This document shows positions 55,148 through 63,947 of a stretch of DNA of 64,000 nucleotides, in pieces. Position numbers and translations under genes: made by a program. The first letter of the stretch is position 1. Each line of letters begins with the position of its first letter. The notes below the pieces were generated by a model. It did not search any database. It had not been told where the DNA came from and saw only the letters and a list, made by a program, of their open reading frames with translations. The stretch is from Aliiroseovarius sp. S1339 (lineage in GTDB: Bacteria; Pseudomonadota; Alphaproteobacteria; Rhodobacterales; Rhodobacteraceae): positions 1-64,000 of the forward strand of contig NZ_JALPQG010000009.1 of the NCBI RefSeq assembly GCF_023195695.1, given 5' to 3'.

Positions 55148-57103
55148 ATGCGCCATACCTGGAAATCCTCAACAGCTCTGCTCGCAACCATTTCTTTGGC
55201 CTTTCCCGCGCCGTTTGCGGCCCAAGCACAGCAGAACGCGCCATTGCCCGAATTCCTTTGTTTCGACGGCAGCGAAACGCCCTGCGCCGAAGGCGTCGCT
55301 GAGGTCCCGACGACCGAGATGATTTGTGAAAACGGTGACCCTTTGCCCTGTGCCGAAGGCGTGTTTGCGGCCCCCAAGTCCGCAATGATTTGCGCTGATG
55401 GGGCGGACCTTCCATGTGCAGACGGAGTTGCCGCCGGTTTGCGACCTGAGATGGCTGAACTTCTGAAAGCGATGCGCGAAGGTGGGATGACCCCGGAAAT
55501 TGCGCAAGCGCCTCCAGCAGAGGAAGCAGGCGAGGTTGCCCCCATTGCGGAAGCGCCCGTTGAAGAACCCGCCGTTGCAGAAGCGCCAGCTGAAGTTGCC
55601 CCCGTTGAGGAAGTGCCTGCTGAGGAAGCCCCCGCTGAGGCTGCCCCGGCGGAAGACGTCCCCGTAGTGGAAGCACCTGTTGAAGAAGCACCCGTTGAAG
55701 AAGCTCCCGTTGCGGACGCACCCGTCGAAGAGCCCGCCGAAGTCGAAAGCGCCGAACCTTCTACGGATGCGCCAGAAGCTACAGCAGCCGAGGCGGTTAC
55801 GGAGGAAACAGCAGACGTTGCCGAAAGCGACACAGCCGAGGCCGCACCAGCGGAGACCCCAACACCTGAAGCAGGTGAAGCTGCCCCGGAAACAGCAGAC
55901 GTTGCGGACGTGTCGCCAGAGGAAGAGGCGGCGCTGGCTGAAGCGTTGACGGCTGCGGATGACGCGACTGCAGACGCCCCGCCTGCCGAACCCGTTCCGG
56001 AACTGCCCATCCAGCCAGAAGCCGAAAGCGGCGAAGCCCCAGCGGCCGCGGCAGCAGACGCCCCGGTCGAGGCGGAAGCAACCGCTGAGGTGACCGAAGA
56101 AGTGGTGACCGAAGAAACTGCGCGCTCGTCTGACGAAGACTTTGCCAACAAAGTGAACGAAACGGCGCAGCCTGTTGCCAAAGACCCCGCGACGACCGCC
56201 AAGTCTGATGGCGATAAAGGCCTGTCCAAGGGTGAAACGGCGATCTTGCTGGGCCTTGGCGCTATTGCCGTCGGGGCGATCCTGTCCAACAATCGCGAGG
56301 TGACGTTGAACTCGGGTGACCGGGTCGTTGTGACGCGCGATGATGGCAGCCTTGAAATCATCAAGGACGACAACGCGCTGTTGCGTCAACCCGGCTCGAC
56401 CGTGCGGACGGAAACCTTCGAAGATGGGTCGACCCGCACGACCGTCACGCGCAAGGATGGCTCGCAGATCGTGACGATCCGCGATGCTGAATACAGGGTG
56501 CTGCGCCGCGTTTATGTGGCTGAGGATGGCACGCTAACCTACCTGATCGACGACACGGTTGATGTTGAACCGGTGGATGTTGCGACCCTACCTGCACCCG
56601 CTGTTCAGCCGGAACTTGCAACGGACGCCGACGAAGACGCCCTGCGCGCCGCCTTGGCGCAACAGGGCGTGTTTGAGCGGCGCTTCAGCCTTGCTCAGGT
56701 CCGCGACATCCCGCAGGTGCGCGCCCTTGTGCCAGTCATCGACCTGGATGCGATAACATTTGAAACGGGGTCGGCTGCGATCCGGCCGGATCAGGCGCGC
56801 TCGCTGTCACGACTGGGCAAGCTGATCCAAAGCTATGTTGCCACTGGCCGCAATGAGGTCTTCCTGATCGAAGGCCATACTGATGCGGTCGGGTCTGCTG
56901 CCTATAATCTGGCCCTGTCCGACCGCCGGGCGGAATCGGTGGCGCTGGCGTTGACCGAATACTTCGACGTGCCGCCCGAGAACCTTGTGGTGCAGGGCTA
57001 TGGAGAAGAGTTCCTTAAGATCGATACAGACTTGGAGGAGCGGGCTAACCGTCGCGCAAGTGTGCGTCGGATCACCCAACTGCTTCGTCAGGTCTCGAAC
57101 TGA
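55148..57103 (+). CDS. OmpA-family envelope protein with Cys repeats and acidic Ala/Glu/Pro region
   Basis: 651 residues with a signal peptide ending at AAQAQ (about 28). Domains in order: three 22-residue repeats of the form C-x7-C-A-[ED]-G-V (starting at C38, C60 and C82); a 200-residue low-complexity stretch rich in EAP and EEAP units; a hydrophobic glycine-rich helix (ILLGLGAIAVGAILS); a charged region; and a C-terminal OmpA-like peptidoglycan-binding domain with EGHTDAVGSAAYNLALSDRR. It probably links outer parts of the envelope to peptidoglycan. TTGGAGG precedes ATG 55148. The 159 bases upstream hold no obvious operator. Confidence 0.85.
   Translation: MRHTWKSSTALLATISLAFPAPFAAQAQQNAPLPEFLCFDGSETPCAEGVAEVPTTEMICENGDPLPCAEGVFAAPKSAMICADGADLPCADGVAAGLRPEMAELLKAMREGGMTPEIAQAPPAEEAGEVAPIAEAPVEEPAVAEAPAEVAPVEEVPAEEAPAEAAPAEDVPVVEAPVEEAPVEEAPVADAPVEEPAEVESAEPSTDAPEATAAEAVTEETADVAESDTAEAAPAETPTPEAGEAAPETADVADVSPEEEAALAEALTAADDATADAPPAEPVPELPIQPEAESGEAPAAAAADAPVEAEATAEVTEEVVTEETARSSDEDFANKVNETAQPVAKDPATTAKSDGDKGLSKGETAILLGLGAIAVGAILSNNREVTLNSGDRVVVTRDDGSLEIIKDDNALLRQPGSTVRTETFEDGSTRTTVTRKDGSQIVTIRDAEYRVLRRVYVAEDGTLTYLIDDTVDVEPVDVATLPAPAVQPELATDADEDALRAALAQQGVFERRFSLAQVRDIPQVRALVPVIDLDAITFETGSAAIRPDQARSLSRLGKLIQSYVATGRNEVFLIEGHTDAVGSAAYNLALSDRRAESVALALTEYFDVPPENLVVQGYGEEFLKIDTDLEERANRRASVRRITQLLRQVSN
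55259..55429 (+). repeat. Three 66-bp coding repeats of a Cys-pair motif
   Basis: Residues 38-94 of the OmpA-family protein repeat every 22 residues: FDGSETPCAEGV, ENGDPLPCAEGV and ADGADLPCADGV, each preceded by Cys. Two Cys per unit suggest three disulfide loops in the periplasm. Confidence 0.85.
55510..56120 (+). repeat. Low-complexity Ala/Glu/Pro/Val coding region
   Basis: About 200 codons of near-repeats such as EEAPVEEAP and AEAPAEVAP. Open frames appear on the opposite strand throughout it, as expected of biased codon use; they are not genes. Confidence 0.8.
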
Positions 57104-57216: not shown

Positions 57217-58317
57217 TTATTGAAACAGCGACAGTTCCGCGAACGATCCGATGGCACTGGCAAGGATCGGCGAAGCGATCGCGAGCATCGCTTTGAACGC
57301 ATCCAGACTGGCGATGCGGTTGATATCGAACCCTTCCAACTGCGCGCCCAACTCGGGTTCACCGACGCCGCTTGCCGCGCGTTTGAAACGTTCGATCCGC
57401 ACTTTCAGGATCAGGCTGACCGGCATGTAGAACGACAAGATCAGCACTGTGTAGGTCACGCCACGAAACATCGACAGCGAGTTGATCACTCCAAGATGTG
57501 CCTCGCGCACCTTATCATCGGTGATCATCGCGTTGGGCCATGACATCCAAGACAACACAAGCACCATGCCCGTCGTTAGCAAAACGCCCGAGCAATAAAG
57601 ATATCGCTGAGACGTCTCCTGCGCGACTTGTAGGGCTTGGGCTTCGATGATCAGTCCATCTTGCGTCGACAGGTCCACCTGACGCGGGCGGGCCAGCGAC
57701 AGCACCATGCCCGCAATGATCGCGGCGGCGGACAGTGACGTCAGGATGTTCACATGGTTCAGAAGGTACTTCATCGCGAAGAACGCGCCTTGATCAGCGC
57801 AGGCACTGGCCAGCGCGCCGCCGGGTGCACAACCGGGCAGCTTGCCGGTGCCAAGGGTTGTGCGAAACAAGTCGTCACCCAGAAGAAAGTGGGATTCAAA
57901 GCTGGCGGGCATCCAGTCTGGCTCAAATGTTGAAAAGCTAAGCGACACGATGATCACCACGACGATCCCGACCAGCGTATAGCAGATCGACCGCCTTGTG
58001 TGGCGCGTATAAAGTTCGGCCGCGAAGACAGCCGTCAGGGTAATTGTCACCGCCACAAAAAAGAACAGGGCGGCAAGAAATTTGTAACGCGCGCCGAGTT
58101 CCACCAGCGGTGACAGATCGTTCAATGTGACGTCCGGCACCACCAACGCAGTGTCGCCGAACGTGCCGAGCAGGTATTCCGAAGCCGTCAGCACCGCGAT
58201 TGGCAACAGCATGATCAACAGGTGCTTGGGCGCGATCTGCAACTTGCCCACCACCGGTGCGGTCTGCCCATTATCGCGCGCTGGCTGTGGGGCTGAAGGA
58301 TCGACGGGGCCAGTCAT
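57217..58317 (-). CDS. Polytopic membrane protein of the caspase cassette, unrecognised family
   Basis: 366 residues. Hydrophobic segments at about 32-52, 80-101, 111-130, 189-208, 241-259 and 284-305, with a weaker one near 343-363, predict six or seven membrane helices. Two Cys (PGCAPGGALASACADQG) sit in the large loop between helices 3 and 4, likely extracytoplasmic. I recognise no catalytic motif and no known family. Its ATG overlaps the stop of the polyenzyme gene (ATGA, four bases), so it is translated with it. The role could be a membrane effector, receptor or anchor for the two soluble enzymes. Confidence 0.8.
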   Translation of the reverse strand: MTGPVDPSAPQPARDNGQTAPVVGKLQIAPKHLLIMLLPIAVLTASEYLLGTFGDTALVVPDVTLNDLSPLVELGARYKFLAALFFFVAVTITLTAVFAAELYTRHTRRSICYTLVGIVVVIIVSLSFSTFEPDWMPASFESHFLLGDDLFRTTLGTGKLPGCAPGGALASACADQGAFFAMKYLLNHVNILTSLSAAAIIAGMVLSLARPRQVDLSTQDGLIIEAQALQVAQETSQRYLYCSGVLLTTGMVLVLSWMSWPNAMITDDKVREAHLGVINSLSMFRGVTYTVLILSFYMPVSLILKVRIERFKRAASGVGEPELGAQLEGFDINRIASLDAFKAMLAIASPILASAIGSFAELSLFQ

Positions 58318-61300
58318 CCGATGTCGATATCCGCGATCAGGCTTTTGCGGCTATCTGCCAACTTGTCACGAATGATCTCGCGCACATCGGCATAGATCGT
58401 TGGGCTTAGCGCGACTTTCTGTGCCGACAGCCAATACTCAAGCTCGTTCTTGCCCCAGGAAACAAACAGGATGTTCTGTTTCTTGTCCTTAAAATTGAAG
58501 TTGAACGCACCCAGCGCCATGCTGATGACGTCGCCCGACGCCTCGGCGCTGCCGATCTGGAAGTTGCCGCCGGTAGACGATGACGTCTCAAAATCGAACA
58601 GTTTGATCTTGCCGTCGTCGGATGCCAGACCGCGCAGCGCCTCCATCGCGCTTTCGACGATCTTGAACTGGTTGCCGGTGGCGACCTGCGCCAGCGTCGT
58701 CAGGATCACTTTATCAAAGCTGCCATTGCCTTTCATCTTCTGGCTCGCCTCGAACGGAGCCGCCTCGCGTGTCCAGCCCATCAGGCTGAGCATATCCATA
58801 TAGGTCGCCTGCCACACATCGCGTTCTTTCACCGGGTCGGCCTTGGCGTCAGCGGCCCGTTGGGCAAACAGTGTTGACAGAAGCACATCCTCTTTCTGGC
58901 TGGGCGTCAGGTTTTCAACAAAGGAAATCACACTTGAGGCGTTGACCGCAGCTTGCAGCGTTTGCTGATGCGCGGCGTTTTCCGACGTTGGGTCGAAATC
59001 GTCGCCCGACCGGCTGACGGGGTTCGCGAAGGCCGAACTGCGCGATTTCGCGCCAGGGGCCGAGCGTGGCTTTGCCAGAATGGTCGAAATCAGCACCGCG
59101 ATACGTTCCGCCAGATCGCGCGGCTCGCGTTTGTTCAAGGGTGAGGCACCGGACAGTTTGGCATCGCGAAACGCAGGTGGCCATGTGGGGTTGGTGCCGC
59201 GTGTGTCGATATGGGTGAAGCTGTTATATCTGCCAATCCCACCTTTAAAAAACCCTTCCTTATCGCGCAACCAGCGCAGGGCCTTCGCGACCTCGGGCGC
59301 TTTCATCCCTGAGACTTTGAAGTCCAGCGCGCAGAAATTCATATGCTGGCTTCGCTTCGCGCCGCCGATACAGGCGTTATAGCCCGGGGCGCGATAGGCG
59401 TTGGTGATTGCAATTGGCTTGCCGATCCGGTCGCGGAAATGGTCCAGCGCCTGCGCGGTCTTGGCGATGTTGGTCCAAAGGCTGCGGGGCGGATATGTGT
59501 TTTTACCATGACACGCACCGCCGGGCGTGCTGTGGCCGCCGCCAAGGATCAGAAACTCATCCGTGCTGAAATTCTTCAACCTGAGCGAGCGAATGAACCC
59601 GTCAAAATCGGCGTAATCAGACCACTCCAACGCCGCTGTCGCGCTGCGAAACCCCGCCCCACGTGACTTGGCGGATAGGATCGCGTCAACCTCGACATCG
59701 GGCAGCAGGTCGCTTTCTTCGCCTTCGTCGTCCTCTGCTTCCATAGTGCTTGTGCCCGGCGCGGAGCGGGGGGCTTTTACGCTCCCACATGTGCTGGCCG
59801 ACGTGCCCACGGGTTGCAGAGTGAACGGTCTGTCAGTGACGAAATTCGGCTCTTTGATCAGCCGTTCGAACAATTGCGGTGTCTGGCTGTCGCTGCCGAT
59901 TTCGCCATCAATGGCGGCGCGGAAGGCGCGATAATCGCCGCTGAACCGCCCTGCGTCCCAAACCTTCAAAAGTGCGCCGGTGAAAGCGCCATTCTGTGCG
60001 CCGTCCATCGCGAACTGGGTGTCCTTGCACGCCCCAAGGTTCAGGACAGACGCCTGAATGGGGCTGCTCAGTGGCGCCGTCATGACGCTTTCTTTCATCG
60101 CGCTATAAGATTTTGATGCCGTGCGATATGCGGCTTCGTTCGCGCGCCAGACGCGGTCCTCGATATGCAGGGGCATCGCACGGATGCGGGGGTCTTGCGG
60201 CATTGCCCGCCCGAACAATTCAGCCGGGGCAGTGGGTCCAAAGCGCGCCATTGAGCCTGAATGGCAGGTGTCAGGCACCATCAGCACCCGCACCCCGTTT
60301 TTGAACAGCGTCCAGAGCATGTAAAGTTCGTCATCTGCGATCTGGAAATCGTAAAGGCACAGCGTTTCGTCCATCCGCTGGCTTTCATCGTCGTGGTCTT
60401 CGTCCTGATTGAAATCAGGCACTCGCCCGCCGTGACCCGACACCGAGAACAGGAACATATCGCCGGGGTCGAGGTCTTTTGCCGCCCGTTCAATCTCGGC
60501 CACCACGTTCTGGCGGGTGGCGTCACGGGTCAGCAGAAGCTGCGGTTTAAACCCTTCGTTCATTGCAATGTCCTGCATCGCCAGCGCGTCGGCCTCGCAG
60601 GCGGTCAACTGCCCGTCCCAGCCATCGTAGTGGGCGGGGTCCACGGTGTTGACGCCGACATGCAGCGACATCCCCTTGGCCGCGCCACCTGCGATCACTT
60701 GGGGGGCTTGCATAGCGCGCGAAAGCTCCGTGGCTGATCCGAACGGGCCGCTGATGATCACCGGAGGGCCGCTGCGGGCATTGGCGATGCGGTTGATCTC
60801 GCGACGGAATTTGTCGGCGACATCGCCGTACCCTTCGCCCGTTGGGTGCAACCCGTCAAACCAGCGGTGATTGCCGACCACGCCGCGGCAGTCGATATAG
60901 GTCACATGCGGCATGGACCTGGCAAGGCGGCGCAGACGGCGGTTGAACTGGTCCATCATCTCGGCCGCGATGGCCATTTGCAGGGCCTTGTTGCGAATGC
61001 CGCGGGTTTCCATCGGTTTACCAAGCCAGCGGTCCTTGTTGGGCACCGGATAGTCGTAGCCGTGGCAAAGAATACAGACATGCGGGAACAGTTGGTGCAC
61101 GTGGCGAAACATTCGGCCGTAATGCATCAACGCGTCGTCTAACAGCGCTTGAAACGACGGCAGAAGATAGTCGGCGGGCGCAAGATCTGGATCGAATGCC
61201 TCCAGATGTGCGGCTAGTGCGCCGCCGGCCACCAGATCATTGCCGCCACCGGATAACAGCAATATACCGGCCCCGGTTTCCCTGAGCGCGCGGGTGTATT

Positions 61301-61709
61301 CCTTCTTGTCCGCCATCCGCTTCAGCAAATCGCCAGCCGCACCCAGCGAATAAATCGCATAGTCGCCCATCAAATGGTCAATCGTATCCCTGAGCTTGAT
61401 CGGATACTGAAACCAGCTGTCGCCTTCAGACACAATGATCGGGCCATCATACCCCCGCGCCAGCTTTTGTTGAAACACGTTTCTTCGGCTCATTCGGGCA
61501 AACCAGTTGGCCGAATTCATCAGCGCCGCCGAGCGTTGGGCCGCATCTGCCCCGCGCGGTATCTGGACAGTTGCCGGGTTCAATTTGAACTTGGGCGAGA
61601 AGGGACCGGACTGTTCTTCATCAACAATGAAGTACTCAGAGAACTCGGTATCATCGGCGTCCAGCTTCGCCATTTTCGACATCAGTTGTTCAACAGTGAT
61701 CTTAGTCAA
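58314..61709 (-). CDS. SGNH hydrolase - caspase - M15 peptidase multidomain protein
   Basis: 1131 residues, no signal peptide. Domains in order: a GDSL/SGNH hydrolase at about 88-312 (S98 in SEGDSWF, GGGND with N157, DGLHP with D285 and H288); a caspase-like C14 domain at about 345-630 (H426 in SVSGHGG, C482 in PDTCHSGS); an acidic linker; an M15-type zinc peptidase at about 700-845 (SQHMNFCALDFKV with H789 and D796, then FTHID with H833); and an unrecognised C-terminal region 900-1131. All visible catalytic residues are intact. It lies 21 bases after the C1 peptidase gene and overlaps the membrane-protein gene. A hydrolytic conflict or defence role is inference. Confidence 0.85.
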   Translation of the reverse strand: MTKITVEQLMSKMAKLDADDTEFSEYFIVDEEQSGPFSPKFKLNPATVQIPRGADAAQRSAALMNSANWFARMSRRNVFQQKLARGYDGPIIVSEGDSWFQYPIKLRDTIDHLMGDYAIYSLGAAGDLLKRMADKKEYTRALRETGAGILLLSGGGNDLVAGGALAAHLEAFDPDLAPADYLLPSFQALLDDALMHYGRMFRHVHQLFPHVCILCHGYDYPVPNKDRWLGKPMETRGIRNKALQMAIAAEMMDQFNRRLRRLARSMPHVTYIDCRGVVGNHRWFDGLHPTGEGYGDVADKFRREINRIANARSGPPVIISGPFGSATELSRAMQAPQVIAGGAAKGMSLHVGVNTVDPAHYDGWDGQLTACEADALAMQDIAMNEGFKPQLLLTRDATRQNVVAEIERAAKDLDPGDMFLFSVSGHGGRVPDFNQDEDHDDESQRMDETLCLYDFQIADDELYMLWTLFKNGVRVLMVPDTCHSGSMARFGPTAPAELFGRAMPQDPRIRAMPLHIEDRVWRANEAAYRTASKSYSAMKESVMTAPLSSPIQASVLNLGACKDTQFAMDGAQNGAFTGALLKVWDAGRFSGDYRAFRAAIDGEIGSDSQTPQLFERLIKEPNFVTDRPFTLQPVGTSASTCGSVKAPRSAPGTSTMEAEDDEGEESDLLPDVEVDAILSAKSRGAGFRSATAALEWSDYADFDGFIRSLRLKNFSTDEFLILGGGHSTPGGACHGKNTYPPRSLWTNIAKTAQALDHFRDRIGKPIAITNAYRAPGYNACIGGAKRSQHMNFCALDFKVSGMKAPEVAKALRWLRDKEGFFKGGIGRYNSFTHIDTRGTNPTWPPAFRDAKLSGASPLNKREPRDLAERIAVLISTILAKPRSAPGAKSRSSAFANPVSRSGDDFDPTSENAAHQQTLQAAVNASSVISFVENLTPSQKEDVLLSTLFAQRAADAKADPVKERDVWQATYMDMLSLMGWTREAAPFEASQKMKGNGSFDKVILTTLAQVATGNQFKIVESAMEALRGLASDDGKIKLFDFETSSSTGGNFQIGSAEASGDVISMALGAFNFNFKDKKQNILFVSWGKNELEYWLSAQKVALSPTIYADVREIIRDKLADSRKSLIADIDIG

Positions 61710-61730
61710 TGTACTTCTCCTTCGTGGCGT

Positions 61731-63947
61731 TCAGTGTCCCGTTTTCTGAAATCCTCTTATGCATTCGAAAATGCTGTTGGTAATGGTGGGGTCGTCGTTC
61801 AATGCGGATTGGGGTATCCGGTCCAAATCGTGTTTTTGCGCAGCAATTCTGTTCAGCCGAAAGACCGCCCCGCGCACCTGCGACGAGGTGTCATTGGCGA
61901 TGCTGGACATGCCAAGAAACGGACGTGGCCTAAGCAGATAGGGCGCGGCGGTGTCATCGGCGTTTTGCGGCAGCGGGTATCGGTCTTCGAATGCGCGCGA
62001 GACCAGTTGCAGGATGGATTTACCGTAGGCCCCAAAGCAGATGCGTTCTTCAAGTGCGGGCGTTGGCACATAAATGCGCGCGCGCGGCGGCGTGTCGTAT
62101 TGCAGATATTCCTGAACAACCGGCTTGCGTGACGACGTTTTGCGCTTCTTCGACCCATCGTTCGGGCCGTTCATCGTGCGGATCAGCGGGATCAGGCGCT
62201 TCTTTGCGCGCGGGATACCAATGGCGGGGTGGATCAGGTGCAGCGTGTCAAAGCGGTCCATTCCGCCGGGGGTCAGGGAGGCGGGATCGAACCAGCGGGT
62301 GTCATGTTCCAGCAACGACAGCATCTCGTGAACCACCAGCGCGCCAGCCCCTTCGGCAACCACGTGAACTTCGCAGCCGGTGTCCTTCTTTAACTGCAAA
62401 AGTTCCAGAAGAAGGTTGCCGACAAAGCCTTTCTTGATCTCCTCGACCTCTTCGTTCTCAAAATCTTCGTACGGAAGCTCTTCGGTGCCGCGCAGGGCGC
62501 GTCGGGCCCCAAGCTCAATGTCGCGCCAAAAGGCCCGGCCCACGCCGCGCACGCGGTTTTCGATCAGCTCGTCCAGATGGGCCGCGTTTTCGCCAGCTTG
62601 TTCCTGACAGGAGTCAAACAGGCTTTGCAGCACCTCAAGCGACTTCTCGACAAAGCTGTTGCACCAGAAAACCGTATAGGGATAAAGCCCGAGGTCCTTG
62701 ATCAACGTCTTGCGCCCGACCGCGTCTGCGAAGGCGGGTTTGATACCTTCAAGACTGCCCGGTATCCAAACAAGCACGCCCCGATAGATGTTTTCCTTGT
62801 TGGCGGGGTCTGCCGTTGGGTCGATCCGTTCGGACAGGTATTTGCGGGTTCGCGGCCAGCCGTTCTTGAACGATGGATATGATCCGGTCGCAACGTGATA
62901 GCCGTCGTCCAGATGCATGTAATGGCCGACAAGTTCAAAACATGGGGTGGAGCCAGCTTGTATAGGGCCTGTATCGCCCTTTGTGCCTTTTTCACCAACC
63001 GATGCACCGAAGGCGGATGGCGCGAAGACGCCAAGGCGCAACACCCAACTGTCCACCACGTTCTGCGCCCAGTCCGCATAAGACCATAGTGCGATCCCCG
63101 CCTGACCGTTGTAGCCGCCCCATTTCGGACCCCATGAATTTAAGACGTGAAAGCCTTTTTCATCATAGCCGGTGACCACAAAAGCATGGGTGCCGGTTTT
63201 GCCGACCTCCGGGGGCCAGGTGATCAGACCTCCGTTATCAGGGGTGGCGGCCAGCCATCCGTCGTGCACATTTGCAGTGGTCAGTATCGCTTCGGCATCA
63301 TTCAGCGCCGCATGAAAATGGTTCAGGATCGAGGCCAGCCGGAAATAGGCCCCAAGCCCAATTTCGCGCGCCTTCTTGGCCTGACCGACCGTGGTAAACT
63401 TGCGCCCCTTGTCCGGTCCGTCGGAAACATAGCAATCGCTTTGCCAGCGGCTGTCATCAGTGGCGGCACTGGCAAAGGGCCAGTCGCGGCAGACGCCGTG
63501 ATGATAGAAACCTTTGATCGCGGATCTGAGCGTCAGGATGCCTTCTTCGGTCAGCACTTCGCCGTTCTCAAGCTCGGGATAACGATCATGGAAAGATGCC
63601 ATGCGATACAGCATATCGGCGCTGACGATGTCTTCGCGCACTTTGGTCAGGTCGGGTGGTGTGGCGTCGGGTGCGCTTGGGCGTCGCCGCACATGTTGCA
63701 AATGGCGTTGAATGTCGATCAGGTTTGCAAGCGCAAAGCCCACGCATCGCCCACTGCTGCCCTGGTTGCGCGCACCAAAAATCGGCACCTGTAATCCGGT
63801 ATCGGGATCAGGCGCCAGCAGGTTCGGGTTCAAAGACACGGTATCGCGCAAAACCGTCAGATTGGGCACATAGTCCTGATCACGCAGGTCCACCCAATCG
63901 GCACGCACACCGGTATCTTTAATCAAAGATCGCGCAAAACTGGCCAT
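61731..63947 (-). CDS. Papain-like (C1) peptidase fused to a degenerate alpha/beta-hydrolase
   Basis: 738 residues, no signal peptide. N-terminal C1 peptidase domain (about 15-305): Q62 and C68 in ARNQGSSGRCVGFALANL, H254 in GTHAFVVTGYD and N270 in LNSWGPKWGG, giving a complete Cys-His-Asn set. A short collagen-like GEKGTKGDTGP follows at 318-328. The C-terminal half resembles an alpha/beta-hydrolase (VLVWIPGSLEG, VHVVAEGAGALVVHEML, LHLIHPAIG), but the nucleophile elbow reads AEGAG with Gly533 where Ser is expected. First gene of the leftward cassette; ATG 63947 is followed downstream by the polyenzyme after 21 bases. Confidence 0.85.
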   Translation of the reverse strand: MASFARSLIKDTGVRADWVDLRDQDYVPNLTVLRDTVSLNPNLLAPDPDTGLQVPIFGARNQGSSGRCVGFALANLIDIQRHLQHVRRRPSAPDATPPDLTKVREDIVSADMLYRMASFHDRYPELENGEVLTEEGILTLRSAIKGFYHHGVCRDWPFASAATDDSRWQSDCYVSDGPDKGRKFTTVGQAKKAREIGLGAYFRLASILNHFHAALNDAEAILTTANVHDGWLAATPDNGGLITWPPEVGKTGTHAFVVTGYDEKGFHVLNSWGPKWGGYNGQAGIALWSYADWAQNVVDSWVLRLGVFAPSAFGASVGEKGTKGDTGPIQAGSTPCFELVGHYMHLDDGYHVATGSYPSFKNGWPRTRKYLSERIDPTADPANKENIYRGVLVWIPGSLEGIKPAFADAVGRKTLIKDLGLYPYTVFWCNSFVEKSLEVLQSLFDSCQEQAGENAAHLDELIENRVRGVGRAFWRDIELGARRALRGTEELPYEDFENEEVEEIKKGFVGNLLLELLQLKKDTGCEVHVVAEGAGALVVHEMLSLLEHDTRWFDPASLTPGGMDRFDTLHLIHPAIGIPRAKKRLIPLIRTMNGPNDGSKKRKTSSRKPVVQEYLQYDTPPRARIYVPTPALEERICFGAYGKSILQLVSRAFEDRYPLPQNADDTAAPYLLRPRPFLGMSSIANDTSSQVRGAVFRLNRIAAQKHDLDRIPQSALNDDPTITNSIFECIRGFQKTGH

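Follow-up and report, generated by a model that had tools for sequence, protein, structure and literature searches.

Several protease-effector conflict modules have been described in bacteria. The "System 3" of Kaur 2020 (PMC7159879), mostly alphaproteobacterial, couples peptidases to NucA endonucleases, and the accessible part of that paper lists trypsin, subtilase, NucA, EAD1, papain/lysozyme-like effectors and STAND among its components. LypABC, as presented in the available part of PMC13236601, is a CARD-NLR-like protease/ATPase/protease-endonuclease system that lyses Caulobacter, its LypC resembling a trypsin plus an endonuclease, and Canu, in the available part of PMC12799240, is a three-gene caspase-nuclease system in which the caspase activates the effector by cleavage. 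A single Chitinophaga pinensis protein, a metacaspase with Amidase_2 and GDSL domains, was remarked on in 2012 and judged a seemingly highly destructive weapon in the accessible part of PMC3501461. Here we describe a cassette of three minus-strand genes, A-B-C, from the marine bacterium Aliiroseovarius sp. S1339, located at positions 57217 to 63947 of a 64,000-nucleotide stretch of contig NZ_JALPQG010000009.1 (the whole stretch is called the window below).

The cassette is an A-B two-gene core joined by a genus-level third gene, C. Judged from its sequence, A-B-C could well be a protease-controlled cell-dissolution module acting inside its own cell, a reading that we hold with about even confidence. 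Its likely use would be abortive infection or programmed lysis or possibly, by co-option, the release of particles. The strongest hint of function is the interchange of wall-active enzymes, fused to B at some loci and adjacent to it at others.

Domain composition of the cassette

Gene A (61731..63947, 738 amino acids) encodes a C1 (papain-like) peptidase followed by an alpha/beta-hydrolase-like domain without its nucleophile. A gap of 21 bases separates it from gene B (58314..61709, 1131 amino acids), an SGNH-caspase-M15 polyenzyme with a conserved C-terminal domain; its TTG start is backed by homologues, whose alignment with it begins at residue 1. B overlaps by 4 bases with gene C (57217..58317, 366 amino acids), a polytopic membrane protein without a significant Pfam match. 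The ratios of non-synonymous to synonymous substitution (dN/dS) against six orthologues are 0.05-0.105 for A, 0.085-0.226 for C and, within B, 0.065-0.093 for the SGNH domain, 0.04-0.09 for the caspase, 0.05-0.09 for the M15 domain and 0.03-0.075 for the C-terminal domain; no value could be had for SGNH and for C against L009, where the comparison was saturated. The open reading frames are thus not chance ones, since purifying selection acts on them. The linker at residues 632-690 of B (59640..59816) evolves fast, with values of 0.14-0.32. That every enzyme domain is under strong purifying selection while the linker varies counts in favor of the cell-dissolution reading.

The peptidase domain of A comprises residues 1-315 (63003..63947). 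Residues 121-304 match the cysteine protease 3ois in the PDB (E=5e-7), there being no significant Pfam match to A, and the Gln-Cys-His-Asn active site (Q62/C68/H254/N270) is intact in the window copy and in all full-length aligned relatives; the gapped rows of the alignment are partial or split copies. One such relative, split over two frames, lies beside a KAP-family P-loop NTPase gene (L065:8212-13954). Residues 316-738 of A (61734..63002) show weak sequence similarity suggestive of an alpha/beta-hydrolase fold: two relatives match Abhydrolase_3 at E 0.017 and 0.027, below the cut-off. The nucleophile position, Gly533 in the window, is glycine in 11/11 A proteins encoded directly 5′ of an SGNH-caspase gene, and serine in 8/8 relatives with other partners (L046, L048, L065, L118, L119, L141, L148, L149); duplicate and partial copies are not counted in this tally, and about ten further plasmid relatives lie outside the sample. 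Three trypsin-C1 fusions also align a glycine here, in a half whose identity is doubtful in them. Each of these fusions is divergent from a giant gene of ~2350-2480 amino acids (L066:9043-19385, L067:1026-11405, L150:1-7791), in the L066 copy of which no Pfam family was found.

All three enzyme domains of B are above the Pfam cut-offs. The SGNH/GDSL hydrolase (residues 1-340, 60690..61709; Lipase_GDSL_2 at 94-294) keeps its GDS serine, GND and histidine in 22/22 aligned sequences, and the aspartate of DxxH in 20/22 (asparagine in L048 and L075). The caspase (residues 345-631, 59817..60677; Peptidase_C14 at 359-615, E=1.6e-16) matches PDB entry 3bij at E=2.5e-64, and its GHG and DTCHSG motifs, read in the sequence, supply the His-Cys dyad of the p20 fold. 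The murein peptidase domain is Peptidase_M15_3 (residues 748-835, 59205..59468; E=5.9e-20), with the zinc motif HxxxxxxD...H readable in the sequence.

The C-terminal domain of B (residues 895-1131, 58317..59027) remotely resembles membrane-lytic proteins of the Cyt type, on weak sequence evidence: two profiles of it, run against all PDB sequences, matched Cyt-type cytolysins only (Cyt1Aa/CytB), and comparison profiles of the second half of A and of C found nothing significant (best E 0.75 and 1.8). The same domain recurs as a stand-alone protein of ~250 amino acids, encoded directly beside an SGNH gene in two cases (L051, L071). Other stand-alone copies are single or tandem genes on plasmids of Vibrio and Sinorhizobium (L072:7857-8687, Vibrio parahaemolyticus; L074:6896-8560, in tandem, Sinorhizobium).

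Seven helices are predicted by hydropathy in the window copy of C, and six or seven in six relatives. By hydropathy, the sole method applied to this point, neither A nor B begins with a strongly hydrophobic stretch. The first-pass annotation of this DNA had proposed three leftward genes with this spacing and overlap, a papain-like peptidase with a pseudo-hydrolase half, a six-to-seven-helix membrane protein, and A and B devoid of signal peptides, all of which agrees with the above. It had also given B three separate hydrolase domains; these are present, and a fourth conserved domain, the C-terminal one, had been missed.

The A-B core and its modular SGNH family

The three genes are found together and adjacent in the same 16 of 21 Aliiroseovarius genomes, where they have flanks of two or more kinds, and the other five have none of them (a raw count of 17 for B in this genus search includes one weak caspase-only match). 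Full-length relatives of B in named genomes come from five Aliiroseovarius loci and one alphaproteobacterial metagenome-assembled genome. A survey of 295 genomes of the family, the own genome included, gave matches to B in 106 at E≤1e-3, many through the M15 or caspase part only; a long SGNH match was read in 17 genomes, with two more short and weak, and A was matched in 10. At E≤1e-15 the SGNH profile was found in 8/385 genomes of the class and 17/299 of the phylum, own and related genomes being included.

We counted 15 distinct SGNH-caspase loci, taking Aliiroseovarius once and one strain with two accessions once: Aliiroseovarius, G200, G213, G146, G051, Palleronia THAF1, Sinorhizobium meliloti M162, S. 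terangae, S. mexicanum, S. chiapasense, Rhizobium CC1099, R. leguminosarum ATCC 14479, RCAM0626 and 248, and R. ruizarguesonis TA1. At 11/15 loci the gene directly 5′ of B is A; in R. leguminosarum 248 a C1 gene of the family lies ~4 kb away on the other strand, and three further loci have no C1 gene near. A wall-active enzyme of one of five kinds is fused or adjacent in 13/15. M15 is fused in Aliiroseovarius, G200, G213 and G146; a LysM-CHAP gene lies just 5′ of A in S. meliloti M162 (by Pfam) and in Rhizobium CC1099 (64% identical); a GH19-like gene, its label Pfam-checked in one case, takes that place in the three other Sinorhizobium; and GH46 plus YkuD genes lie just 3′ of B in R. leguminosarum ATCC 14479 (by Pfam), TA1 and RCAM0626 (by annotation), GH46 being a chitosanase family and not a proven murein enzyme. 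Finally, Palleronia has a PG_binding gene just 3′ of B, with a CHAP match below the cut-off.

Gene C accompanies A-B only within Aliiroseovarius. Its relatives occur in 7/295 family genomes (the own and six others), and neither A nor B lies near them outside the own genome in the stretches read, ~10 kb on each side where the contig allowed; it has no plasmid match. The co-occurrence check attached to the first-pass annotation thus came out in part: A, B and C travel together in the genus and A with B well beyond it, and relatives of C elsewhere stand apart. Other SGNH loci have a different polytopic protein of ~600 amino acids, recurring by BLAST in L069, L146, L153, L155 and L145, and by alignment and place in L144, L151 and L047. 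No similarity between C and this protein was found (hhalign probability 0.2 on a scale of 100). A periplasmic-type SBP_bac_3 protein adjoins the ~600-residue protein in five of these loci (L069:3261-6212, L146:1308-4321, L153:5296-8156, L155:3274-5903 and L047:11782-14789, the L047 membrane protein being assigned by place and alignment only), and the pair is possibly a periplasmic sensor. Having a membrane component, which might sense the periplasm, may be a general trait.

The SGNH domain, residues 1-340 of B, is the common part of a modular family in which the partners are swapped. It is combined with caspase, M15 and the C-terminal domain in the window and G200, with caspase and M15 in G213 and G146, and with caspase in G051 and on rhizobial plasmids. 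Further combinations are with trypsin and NucA (L044, L045), trypsin (L046, L048, L051), amidase_3 and M15 (L050, L071), an amidase with an annotated subtilase (L073) and a Dyp-type peroxidase (L133). Alone, it lies beside trypsin, trypsin-NucA or A-like genes (L043, L053, L055, L118, L119), and loci of the family are sometimes near peroxidases and C1/C25 peptidases. At L043 the SGNH gene is accompanied by trypsin-NucA, trypsin and EAD1 genes and by a STAND gene with two NTPase stretches. Some distant relatives have ordinary-looking neighbors, such as cobalamin or glutathione genes (L120, L121).

Some further neighbors recur at these loci. Haem peroxidase genes lie beside C1 or SGNH genes in L046:5586-7538, L048:11816-13717, L042:4415-6400, L143:6205-7920 and L149:8738-10363, labelled as An_peroxidase by Pfam in L046 and L048 and by BLAST or annotation elsewhere. 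One protein family recurs beside SGNH-trypsin pairs (L049:18338-19999, L053:11400-14393, L055:11638-13179), its L053 member matching a RoxA-like cytochrome c and its L049 member giving weak cytochrome matches only. On rhizobial plasmids, SGNH genes are found near genes annotated as a SIR2-family protein and an ATPase (L142:1752-9896, L157:5992-12978).

Proposed cell dissolution and the alternatives

On the cell-dissolution reading, a signal, perhaps received or relayed through C, would activate the C1 and/or the caspase domain, and cleavage in the variable linkers would liberate the other domains of B. The Cyt-like and lipase-type SGNH domains would then breach the inner membrane, giving the M15 domain access to the wall, where it would cut murein, and the cell would lyse. 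The lysis of Caulobacter by LypABC, as the available part of its description has it, offers a precedent by analogy, and the exchange of SGNH partners among caspase, trypsin, NucA, amidase and subtilase, with one locus carrying both EAD1 and STAND, points the same way. So do the wall-active enzymes at 13/15 loci, the position of A next to B in 11/15, the glycine at the nucleophile position of all 11 A proteins so placed, and the Cyt-type matches. The regulated-proteolysis or suicide module of the first-pass annotation thus survives as the best reading, with its core reduced to A-B.

Several observations weigh against it. The Cyt matches are weak, at E 0.01-0.035 with one profile and 0.0044 with the other, in whose alignment the window row is shortened at its end; these values are hard to judge because the same type of search, run with the SGNH profile, was insensitive enough to find no PDB chain at E 0.01, missing known SGNH structures. 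Pfam run on 10 members of the C-terminal domain gave no Cyt hit, and a structure model of the domain, built from seven sequences 81-96% identical, failed, with a predicted local distance difference test score (pLDDT) of 38; for these reasons we treat the Cyt likeness as a lead. The Gly/Ser split in A may be a single inherited change, since the compared sequences are related. The count of wall enzymes stands without a random-locus control, and at two loci B was found to have no wall enzyme next to it: G051, with a haem peroxidase gene on the 5′ side of A, and R. leguminosarum 248, whose annotated neighbors are trypsin-like, YEATS-associated, EEP-family and phospholipase-D-like. Presence in 16/21 congeners is commoner than for a typical patchy defence gene.

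A further point against this reading is that neither STAND/NLR nor EAD genes were seen next to the window cassette. No mobile or defence genes were recognised among the flanking genes inspected (four upstream by Pfam; downstream OmpA-type and transport-type genes partly by reading, in a window that is mostly unannotated and whose flanks were not run through PADLOC), so the placement in a defence or mobile island that the first-pass annotation proposed to check finds no support there. The OmpA-type protein adjoining the cassette (55148-57103) has a very long Ala/Glu/Pro-rich stretch and close copies in few congeners. For B, PADLOC gave only a generic caspase model. Applied to the neighbors of the relatives (133 of 170 proteins, of 120-1300 amino acids and not open-ended; the 37 left out were mostly the largest and known companions, plus a few short ones), it gave scattered matches to 38 families, among those listed mad3 and AriA three times each and others once, a tally that, without a control set, supports no conclusion.

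The best-surviving alternative, which we think unlikely, is an antagonistic or digestive arsenal whose hydrolases, released by lysis or exported along an unrecognised route, would act on other cells. The breadth of enzymes at related loci (murein hydrolases, lipase-type enzymes, proteases, peroxidases, nucleases) would suit it, as would a gene annotated as a Rap1a/Tai-type immunity protein near one related locus. However, A and B lack a strongly hydrophobic N-terminus, no immunity gene was recognised in the window cassette, and type VI delivery is excluded in Aliiroseovarius, the sheath family PF05591 being found in 0/21 genomes with a positive control genome.

Less probable still is a LypABC-like lysis cassette that serves to release gene transfer agent (GTA) or prophage particles. 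The alphaproteobacterial LypABC is required for GTA-mediated lysis, according to the available part of its description; yet no GTA or phage genes were recognised next to A-B-C among the genes inspected, and the cassette is missing from 5/21 congeners. Furthermore, the phage collection gave no match to the C-terminal domain, and viral contigs gave no confirmed relative of that domain or of C. A phage-borne origin of the cassette was rejected on the same findings, the three SGNH relatives in viral contigs being weak. The slimmest chance of the three goes to a cytosolic or membrane protease complex that carries out ordinary remodelling or quality control of the envelope. The cassette's presence in most congeners under strong purifying selection would favor it; against it are the absence from five of the 21 and the exchange of SGNH partners (nuclease, peroxidase, protease and wall enzymes), which is not what a housekeeping pathway looks like.

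Returning to cell dissolution, a bolder extension, speculative and rather doubtful, would see in these loci a sparse, broadly spread and unnamed class of death effectors, defined by one SGNH family mixed with proteases, wall enzymes, nucleases and peroxidases. In the caspase branch, the caspase would free a covalently attached Cyt-like pore former, a one-chain counterpart of killing by caspase and gasdermin, and the dead hydrolase domain of the C1 partner would serve as a regulator. If the cell-dissolution reading is right, protease-triggered bacterial suicide would reach beyond nucleases and take in the dissolving of the whole envelope, all its tools being coupled to a single caspase; the EGDSWFQYP-type SGNH domain would become a marker for sorting modular effectors that are now annotated piecemeal. 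It also raises the testable question of whether a bacterial caspase switches on a fused membrane-lytic domain and murein peptidase.

Comparison with described systems

In the open full-text literature, screened by title and start of abstract (subscription papers and preprints lie outside this scope), no description of this set was found. The statement of the first-pass annotation that no named system has this set holds to the extent that SGNH is absent from the accessible text of the related papers; it needs qualifying, since System 3 and LypABC come near it in kind, and the GDSL-caspase-amidase protein drew comment in 2012.

The likeness to System 3 lies in the relatives of B, whose SGNH domains are fused or adjacent to trypsin-NucA proteins of that sort, locus L043 being much alike. 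The difference is that the main text of PMC7159879 makes no mention of SGNH, GDSL or peroxidase, and that the NucA-trypsin core is absent from A, B and C by Pfam, both parts being present in the SGNH relatives L043-L045. Likewise, Pfam finds no EAD1, STAND or NTPase in A, B or C, nor EAD1 or STAND in the four upstream flanking genes.

LypABC, in the available part of PMC13236601, is an alphaproteobacterial protease system of this general kind that brings about lysis of its host. In the cassette, by contrast, a caspase and a C1 peptidase take the place of trypsin, wall- and membrane-type enzymes that of the nuclease, and there is no NLR-type ATPase; Pfam finds no ATPase domain in it, and a CARD-like fold was not sought by structure. 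With Canu, as far as the accessible part of PMC12799240 goes, the cassette shares three genes and a caspase with an effector partner, but the effectors here are SGNH, M15 and Cyt-like, there is an extra C1 protein, and the metallo-beta-lactamase-fold nuclease is absent by Pfam.

The Cyt cytolysins are comparable through the remote profile match of residues ~895-1131 of B, and differ in that the domain here belongs to a polyenzyme without an evident export signal, in a Gram-negative bacterium. The Chitinophaga protein, compared by description only, also unites a lipase, a murein hydrolase and a caspase in one chain; it is a single protein with another murein enzyme, and the part of PMC3501461 available mentions no C1 partner, Cyt-like domain or system. 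We do not count the cassette among the System 3, Canu or LypABC types, since the parts that define these were sought in it and not found; it is best read as a variant of the protease-effector conflict modules that these three represent.

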